A stretch of 64,000 nt of DNA from an uncultured Desulfuromonadales bacterium (GTDB taxonomy: Bacteria > Desulfobacterota > Desulfuromonadia > Geobacterales > Pseudopelobacteraceae): contig CAIPTY010000010.1 in assembly GCA_903868145.1 (NCBI GenBank), forward strand, positions 124,001 through 188,000, read 5' to 3'. The first letter of the stretch is position 1. Every line of letters starts with the position of its first letter. The position numbers and the translations under genes were made by a program. Positions 21,698 through 22,949 of this stretch are shown in pieces. A model generated the notes under the pieces. The model was not told where the DNA came from. It was given only the letters and a program-made list of their open reading frames with translations, and ran no database searches.

Positions 21698-21702
21698 ATA
21701 CG

Positions 21703-21791
21703 AAAATACTAAACTATCCGCAAGGGTAGGACGGAAAGCCTAAGGGTCTCACAGAGACAGCCGGGTCGCCGAAATATCGATCAGTCGATAT
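21703..21791 (+). promoter_or_regulatory. GEMM-I riboswitch 1 (cGAMP-type, A20)
   Basis: The core reads ATACTAAAC, helix CTATCC-GCAA-GGGTAG with a GNRA loop, then GGACGGAAAGCC and GCCGGGTCGCCGAA, the GEMM-I consensus. Aligned to Vc2, the ligand-reading base at position 20 is A (21708) rather than G. Established: GEMM-I members with A20, found mainly in Geobacter, prefer 3',3'-cGAMP over c-di-GMP. The 3' strand overlaps an intrinsic terminator. Confidence 0.9.
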
Positions 21792-21809
21792 AACGCACCC
21801 GGTTTTTTT
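21761..21809 (+). terminator. Terminator/expression platform of riboswitch 1
   Basis: CCGGGT (21761-21766) pairs with ACCCGG (21797-21802), enclosing a perfect 7-bp hairpin (21774-21780 with 21785-21791), and is followed by seven T. CCGGGT is also part of the aptamer, so ligand binding and termination would compete (an ON switch is expected, by inference). Confidence 0.75.
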
Positions 21810-21836
21810 GTGTTTATACCGGGGGAACTGACAACA

Positions 21837-21872
21837 ATGAAAGGAGAACCGGCTATGGGATTGTTATTCTAG
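21837..21872 (+). other. Very short ORF between the two riboswitches
   Basis: ATG at 21837 opens 11 codons; the better start is ATG at 21855, 8 bases after AAGGAG (21841-21846), encoding MGLLF then stop. The flanking sequence (CCGGGGG...GACAAC..AAAGGAG) resembles that just before the cytochrome start (CCGGGGGCGACTACCGACAAAGGAG). It is either a leader peptide or the relic of a duplicated gene start. Confidence 0.4.
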
Positions 21873-21907
21873 TCTGCTCATAACTGAAGACTGTGACAGG
21901 GGATAGA

Positions 21908-21995
21908 CGACAATACTAAACCATTCGAGAGGATGGGACGGAAAGCCTAAGGGTCTCACTGAGACAGCCGGGTCGCCGAAATATCGATCAATCAA
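21908..21995 (+). promoter_or_regulatory. GEMM-I riboswitch 2 (cGAMP-type, A20)
   Basis: A second aptamer: ATACTAAAC, CCATTC-GAGA-GGATGG, then the same GGACGGAAAGCC and GCCGGGTCGCCGAA as copy 1. The position-20 base is again A (21915). No T-run follows. GTCGCC (21973-21978) can pair with GGCGAC (22027-22032), ~9 bases before the ribosome-binding site, so control may be on translation or by a weaker terminator; this is inference. Confidence 0.88.
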
Positions 21996-22052
21996 GATCA
22001 AGCTCCGCTTTAACGGCTACTGCCGGGGGCGACTACCGACAAAGGAGACACT

Positions 22053-22949
22053 ATGAGATCGAAAATCAAGGCAATGATACTTATGTTCTGTGCGGTTGCA
22101 GTGGGAATTGTGGCGGGCTGCGGGGGCGGCGGCGGGGGAGGCACAACTCCGGCTGCCGGGACAAGCGCGGCATCCTCCGGGTCGACGGCACCCGACGCCA
22201 CGGCCCCGCCAGCATCAACTCCGGCTTCAACGCCAGCCTCAACACCGGCTTCAGCGCCGGCCTCAACGGTGGACGGTGCAGCGCTTTATGCAGCAAAGTG
22301 TGCCGGTTGCCATGGCGCGCTGGCCACATCCAGCAAAACCGGTATTACCCTGGCGCGCCTTCAGGCCGGCATCAACGGCGATTCCGGTGGCATGGGATCC
22401 TTGTCAAGCCTGACGAGCGACGAGTTGCAGGGCATTGTTACAGCTCTGAACCCCACGACAACCACTTCGACACCGCCCGCAACCCCGGCACCGCCTTCAA
22501 CCTCTACCGATGGCGCAACTCTCTATGCCAGCAGTTGCGCAGGCTGTCATGGCGCGCTGGCGTCTTCCGCAAAGGCCGGGGCAGCGGCTGCCAGCATTCA
22601 GACGGCAATCAACAATAATATCGGCACCATGGGGTCGTTGTCGGCTCTAACGCCAACCCAGGTCAGCGCCATTGCAACAGCTTTAGCCGGTGCAACATCG
22701 ACGGCGCCCCCGGCAACCCCGCCCGCGTGCGGAAGCTGCCATGCCATACCGCCTGCAACAGGCCGGCATTCCAAACACAACAAGGCAAGCGTCGCCACCT
22801 GCGCCACCTGCCATGGTACCGGCTACAGCAGCACAGCTTACAATGCGGCTACCCACAACAACGGCACGAAAAACCTGGTAAGCACTATTGGCTGGAATTC
22901 TACAAGCCGCTCATGCTCGAATTCATGCCACGGCAGCAGAACCTGGTAG
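22053..22949 (+). CDS. Riboswitch-controlled multiheme c-type cytochrome lipoprotein
   Basis: 298 residues. Signal peptide with lipobox IVAG|C23, then a glycine run and a Ser/Thr/Pro/Ala linker with STPA repeats (to ~residue 72). Two similar monoheme domains follow: CAGCH at 83-87 and 162-166, each with a later MGSL that may supply an axial Met (114, 193). A C-terminal region has CGSCH (226-230), CATCH (250-254) and CSNSCH (288-293, three residues between cysteines). GGAG lies 9 bases before ATG. Likely an outer-surface electron carrier for extracellular electron transfer; inferred from fold, anchor and riboswitch class. Confidence 0.85.
   Translation: MRSKIKAMILMFCAVAVGIVAGCGGGGGGGTTPAAGTSAASSGSTAPDATAPPASTPASTPASTPASAPASTVDGAALYAAKCAGCHGALATSSKTGITLARLQAGINGDSGGMGSLSSLTSDELQGIVTALNPTTTTSTPPATPAPPSTSTDGATLYASSCAGCHGALASSAKAGAAAASIQTAINNNIGTMGSLSALTPTQVSAIATALAGATSTAPPATPPACGSCHAIPPATGRHSKHNKASVATCATCHGTGYSSTAYNAATHNNGTKNLVSTIGWNSTSRSCSNSCHGSRTW

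Follow-up and report, generated by a model that had tools for sequence, protein, structure and literature searches.

The stretch of DNA analysed here (the window) spans 64,000 nucleotides of an uncultured Desulfuromonadales bacterium and contains a leader bounded by the start of a transporter gene on the opposite strand (21510) and the start of a multiheme cytochrome gene (22053). Two complete GEMM-I aptamers with the same core lie one after the other in this leader. The features discussed below are as follows:

21698-21773, + strand: GEMM-I aptamer 1 (RF01051, 49.5 bits; A at 21708)
21760-21809, + strand: intrinsic terminator of switch 1, with its T-run at 21803-21809 (fold −20.1 kcal/mol, z −4.24)
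21839-21846, + strand: Shine-Dalgarno (SD)-like GAAAGGAG between the aptamers (anti-SD duplex −8.7; likewise in the congeners G001 and G003)
21855-21872, + strand: micro-ORF ATG GGA TTG TTA TTC TAG, encoding MGLLF (near-same ORFs in G001 and G003)
21905-21980, + strand: GEMM-I aptamer 2 (RF01051, 47.2 bits; A at 21915)
21967-22038, + strand: putative platform of switch 2, lacking a T-run terminator, with an alternative helix (86-nt fold −25.8, z −1.87)
22041-22047, + strand: SD AAAGGAG of the cytochrome gene (read from the sequence)
22053-22949, + strand: multiheme c-type cytochrome lipoprotein P0001, 298 aa (CxxCH motifs; Pfam matches)

The cytochrome protein (298 residues) has a signal peptide of the lipoprotein type; by eye, CxxCH occurs in it four times and CxxxCH once. 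It matches Cytochrome_CBB3 (1.1e-12) and Cytochrome_C7 (5.1e-7) in Pfam. Because the flanking transporter genes (edges 21510 and 23035) are on the strand opposite to the cytochrome gene, the switches serve one gene and no operon. The leader has few promoter matches and these are weak: three on both strands, against 1.1 (sd 0.9) expected.

Rfam cmscan of the window matched RF01051 at the two aptamers (E 1.2e-6 and 4.1e-6) and, at the gathering score of 35, nowhere else; both aptamers score above it and belong to GEMM-I. Each carries A at alignment column 11, which we take to be the equivalent of Vc2 position 20, a base that probably places both in GEMM-Ib, and a family model (R1) built from 23 related aptamers, the window pair included, scores them at 101.1 and 100 bits. 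The original prediction of tandem A20-type GEMM-I aptamers before one cytochrome gene is borne out, the two A residues lying at 21708 and 21915 as claimed; the tandem stands, and its proposed extent of 21703-21995 is refined by the Rfam boundaries listed above.

At switch 1, a hairpin at 21760-21802 (−20.1 kcal/mol, z −4.24; none of 200 shuffled sequences folds as stably) is followed directly 3' by a run of seven T. The terminator overlaps aptamer 1 at 21760-21773, in the paired columns 67-70 and 73-75 of alignment A2; its 5' half takes bases from the 3' strands of the aptamer, so aptamer 1 and terminator are mutually exclusive. The ligand-pairing C, presumably 21769, is paired in the computed terminator hairpin. 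The pilM riboswitch of Geobacter metallireducens is described as an ON switch of this kind, whose terminator excludes the aptamer and takes the ligand-pairing C (PMC9262584).

That A20 goes with cGAMP, as had been proposed, is supported by the A20G change in Gmet_0970, which switches selectivity to c-di-GMP (PMC6456294), and by a GacA-like cyclase with the Hypr serine in the window genome. Aligning the 20 GGDEF matches of this genome placed Ser at the Hypr position in three (L068, L073 and L077), among which L068 alone has the standard signature (GGDEY, the other two having RIHRDEF and GGDDF). The gene in question, L068:1474-2850, encodes 458 residues with a receiver domain and GHMVGSRLL together with GGDEY, and is a candidate cGAMP-making Hypr GGDEF enzyme. 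Its best solved relative is 6d9m, a GacA GGDEF domain (225.7 bits, E 1.4e-65; next 140.2 bits), with which its Ser aligns; the title of 6d9m and the T4-lysozyme fusion in PMC6456294 identify that structure as GmGacA. A GacA-like gene with the aligned serine suggests that cGAMP is probably made in this genome by a GacA-like enzyme, and by analogy with measured relatives cGAMP is probably the ligand of both aptamers, acting in the ON direction.

Searches with RF01051, and at E ≤10 with a model specific to the family, retrieved no GEMM-I beyond the window pair in this 97% complete assembly, and further elements could be missing from it since it is incomplete and divided into 103 contigs. The three congeners G001, G002 and G003 have 18, 9 and 14, respectively. 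With two GEMM-I, both here, and a GacA-like enzyme kept, the window genome (G000) has the appearance of a shrunken cGAMP regulon. Going by the assembly, it offers a useful minimal cGAMP regulon, with one switched gene alongside a GacA-like enzyme. The GEMM-Ib elements and the GacA-like protein also mark the organism as a probable Geobacter relative.

We consider it likely that the leader holds two serial cGAMP-type (GEMM-Ib) ON riboswitches ahead of a single surface cytochrome gene, with switch 1 as the main control. Without cGAMP, the terminator hairpin would capture the 3' strand of aptamer 1 and transcription would stop at 21803-21809; with cGAMP from a GacA-type cyclase, aptamer 1 would hold, the hairpin would be blocked and the polymerase would read on. 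Switch 1 would carry most of the control, with switch 2 at most a weak or translation-level check. The idea that the pair forms a logic gate does not survive for the window: both aptamers are A20 with the same core, and one ligand for both leaves no two-input gate.

GEMM-I elements are present in 71 of 76 genomes of the family, and fuller family searches sum to 737 matches at E ≤0.001, a few of them below the gathering score. Tandem sets number 84 including the window (the 83 others picked by eye, one of them a triplet), and 75 are A20/A20. Tandem GEMM-Ib switches are published before the omcAHG cytochromes of G. sulfurreducens, where RNA is lost by the second switch upon deletion of gacA (PMC6456294), and c-di-GMP-I doublets (n = 347) are the most numerous of any riboswitch class in the dataset of PMC9481103. 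Given the published Geobacter cytochrome tandems and the 84 sets in the family, the window tandem is ordinary in kind. A terminator is found at switch 1 in all 80 evaluable tandems and at switch 2 in 66 of the 80, L165, L188, L189 and L200 having been dropped for want of an AGCC anchor at one or both aptamers. Other counts gave 83/84 and 67/84, or 84/84 and 71/84 when distant T-runs were admitted.

The two copies appear to be old. The regions around 18 relatives of the cytochrome, some of them cut by contig ends, contain two aptamers in nine cases, one in four and none in five; the best relative in G002 is distant (36% identity), with a single aptamer in its region. U replaces C at column 18 of alignment A2 in 26/75 first aptamers and 0/75 second aptamers, counts that are no probability given the shared history of related genomes, and among 23 aligned aptamers the partner changes too, giving a U-A pair in 6/6. 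These marks point to first and second copies that have long been distinct. Ungapped identities in the genus trio are 88-95% for copy-1 counterparts, 93-97% for copy-2 counterparts and 88-93% for the two copies within one genome, overlapping ranges that leave plain identity indecisive on recent duplication. A recent duplication inside this genome is nonetheless unlikely: relatives of the cytochrome have tandems, and the copies bear different marks.

Several tandems elsewhere in the family are of other types. Four are mixed, with a first aptamer of the cGAMP type (A20) and a second of the c-di-GMP type (G20): L189 (G053:C42:77295-77533), L199 (G066:C11:38067-38343), L200 (G057:C3:3117927-3118275) and L202 (G059:C1:1681643-1681917). 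They precede genes for secreted-looking proteins of two kinds (by eye) and, if both switches are ON switches, would form AND gates for two second messengers. L152 (G016:C1:201998-202218) and the first aptamer of L206 (G058:C220:58874-59180) have G at position 20 in a cGAMP-type surround (next bases CT), making them natural counterparts of the engineered A20G, and L140 (G015:C10:17164-17530) is a triplet of A20 aptamers.

The prediction that the first switch has a T-run terminator and the second has none agrees with what we find (z −4.24 versus −0.19). The stretch after aptamer 2 that matches terminator 1 (21967-22016) folds at −8.8 kcal/mol and has no T-run, and no T-run terminator of the pilM type was found within 60 nt of the anchor at switch 2. 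Because G001 and G003 do have a terminator at switch 2, the window's lineage has presumably lost one. Conceivably, then, switch 2 is a relic whose platform decayed as the regulon shrank to one gene, with switch 1 alone of consequence. We give this reading appreciable weight, short of thinking it probable; the two GEMM-I found in the genome, against 18, 9 and 14 in the congeners, fit it, as does the missing terminator. Aptamer 2 itself speaks against decay: it shares 93% identity with the second copy in each of G001 and G003 and has kept its full core, which suggests continuing use and hence a working platform, and the column-18 difference between first and second copies likewise indicates distinct copies kept for a long time.

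A working platform without a terminator could be translational. In that case the unliganded 3' strand of switch 2 would pair with 22028-22038 to form a stem beside the SD at 22041 that hinders initiation, and ligand would turn translation on by removing this stem. An alternative helix of the required kind can be drawn between 21969-21977 and 22028-22033 plus 22036-22038; its fold scores −25.8 kcal/mol (z −1.87), and the helix stops 2 nt short of the gene's SD. Other lineages keep terminator-less second switches with recognisable leaders (for example L150, L166, L168, L170, L171 and L178), and these leaders share a near-constant stretch before the start codon. The partition function gives less encouragement: the mean unpaired probability of the SD (22041-22047) is 0.57 in the free RNA, 0.65 under a partial constraint that is incomplete and still allowed the alternative helix, and 0.51 with the full aptamer of 17 pairs enforced, these pairs being the RNAalifold consensus and not the crystal fold. 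In addition, a GUCGCC/GGCGAC pairing seen in G001 is absent in G003 (by eye). We therefore hold this reading to be doubtful, and equally doubtful the division of labour that it implies, with switch 1 acting at transcription and switch 2 at translation. A sequestered cytochrome start as a clear translational switch is unsupported, as the SD is not clearly more open once the aptamer is forced (0.57 to 0.51).

By eye, the terminator-less second switches of L150, L166, L168, L170, L171 and L178 look like translational platforms. In these six loci and L135 the second switch has a near-constant GTGATAA...CACAGCTACGAA(A)GGAG before the start codon, and the same seven have ACCTCTCGT or a variant of it before aptamer 2 (both by eye).

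Between the aptamers of the window lies the SD-like GAAAGGAG (21839-21846), whose anti-SD duplex of −8.7 has a shuffle p of 0.25; G001 and G003 have the same motif in the same place (p 0.39 and 0.49). As the motif is weak here, this locus draws its support from the resemblance among the three congeners and from the family pattern. For the latter we took the part of the spacer after terminator 1 where it spans at least 40 nt, which gave 64 tandems and left out 20 with shorter spacers, and called a motif strong at an anti-SD match of −11 kcal/mol or better. Strong motifs occur in 36 of the 64 long spacers, versus 0/64 reverse complements, 1/64 stretches upstream of aptamer 1 and 0/61 at +400 after aptamer 2. 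Grouped by similarity into 31 clusters, which may share remote ancestry, the spacers have a median shuffle p ≤0.05 in 14/31, against 1/31, 2/31 and 0/29 in the controls. The Fisher p is 2.8e-10 (1.8e-10 in a parallel test). Whole spacers of all 84 tandems, with 60 shuffles, reach p ≤0.05 in 39% (median p 0.17). The recurrence of a putative ribosome-binding motif between tandem switches is thus well supported family-wide from sequence. An SD in this position is apparently unreported so far: a limited literature search, which is no proof of absence, found neither ribosome sites nor micro-ORFs described between paired GEMM switches in the text available to it.

A strong motif is also associated with lack of the second terminator, which among the 80 evaluable tandems is absent in 12/35 with a strong motif versus 2/45 others (the window and L155; Fisher p 0.0007, not corrected for kinship, the 12 tandems falling in 7 clusters of which some are probably related). 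Separately, the cluster of L133, L146, L159, L167, L175, L176 and L181 has a conserved spacer and, in 6/7, no strong ribosome motif.

Two explanations compete with a selected ribosome site. The SD and short ORF may be left over from duplication of a switch together with its gene, followed by deletion of the first gene, an account that we find credible if somewhat less than probable. To the eye, the two ribosome sites of the window have similar surroundings, and MGLLF may be what remains of the beginning of a signal peptide. Moreover, 17 of the 31 spacer clusters, those ranking second and third in size among them (7 and 6 loci), are without a significant motif. Against it stand a group of 14 loci, where AGGAGGTGA is kept in 12/14 while adjoining sequence has been deleted or inserted, and the strong motifs in 36/64 sense spacers and 0/64 antisense ones.

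The second explanation is that the motif is non-ribosomal and belongs to the second switch, either pairing with a complementary stretch or binding CsrA, which recognises GGA. By eye, ACCTCTCGT immediately ahead of aptamer 2 could form pairs with the motif and for the most part with the SD of the gene too (L150, L166, L170, L171 and L178), and L168 carries this stretch as ACCTATCGT; the ACCTCT stretch is absent, however, from the 14-locus group and from the window. Binding of CsrA accords poorly with the replacement of GGAGG by GGGGG in L134, L150, L178, L183, L184, L196 and L197, where wobble keeps the anti-SD pairing and GGA is gone. We regard a non-ribosomal motif as unlikely.

A short ORF follows the motif in some groups. 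In the window it begins eight bases after GAAAGGAG and has five codons (MGLLF); that of G001 encodes MGLLF with one synonymous change and that of G003 MSMLF, the flanks being less alike (by eye), so like ORFs are found in 2/3 congeners. The shuffle frequency of motif plus ORF is 0.10 for the window spacer alone. Among the 64 spacers, ATG ORFs of up to 8 codons lie behind the motif in 8, where shuffles predict 2.0; admitting GTG and TTG starts raises the count to 13 against 5.4, and also admitting ATT, ATC and a length of 9 codons raises it to 26 against 8.7. In 12 members of the 14-locus cluster, the codon six bases past the motif is ATC, ATT or ATG; of the other two, one has GTT and then ATG, and in one the codon is displaced by a single base. 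All 14 reach an in-frame stop within 8 codons, versus 7/14 and 2/14 within 9 codons in the other two frames; the frame needs an independent test, since it was spotted by eye before counting. L157, L158, L173 and L177 keep the motif with no consistent ORF (by eye). We also considered a conserved structure for the 14-locus spacer and set it aside for too little support: RNAalifold on 11 of the 14 members (the other three are missing most of what lies between the outer arms) gave 24 pairs, 3 of them with changes on both sides.

Combining these patterns, we suggest, tentatively and from sequence patterns, that a three-part device may often occur in the family: switch 1, a ribosome-binding site under selection (accompanied in some groups by an ORF of 4-8 codons, possibly with an AUC or AUU start) and switch 2. 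Ribosome loading after read-through of switch 1 would alter the folding of the second aptamer or of the gene start, and translation capacity would gate the second decision. If functional, the recurrent motif would link a second-messenger decision to ribosome supply; the double switch itself is one more case of a published pattern. Such leaders could be placed in the nanoluciferase reporters published for G. sulfurreducens (PMC6456294), a tractable organism that allows a simple test.

Set against known systems, the window most resembles the omcAHG and GSU2885 tandems of G. sulfurreducens described in PMC6456294, with two serial GEMM-Ib aptamers before a cytochrome, cGAMP from GacA and an ON response. 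It differs from them in serving one gene, in being the sole GEMM-I found in its genome and in having no terminator 2; its aptamers have a micro-ORF between them. The pseudo-cooperative tandems for one ligand, published as sharpening the response (PMC9481103), likewise have two full aptamers of the same class in series, whereas the second platform of the window is not a terminator. The proposed sharpening would depend on a functional platform at switch 2, and in this genome the second switch has no terminator. Switch 1 shares with the pilM cGAMP riboswitch (PMC9262584) a transcriptional ON design in which the terminator uses the 3' strand of the aptamer; pilM has a single aptamer and the window has two.
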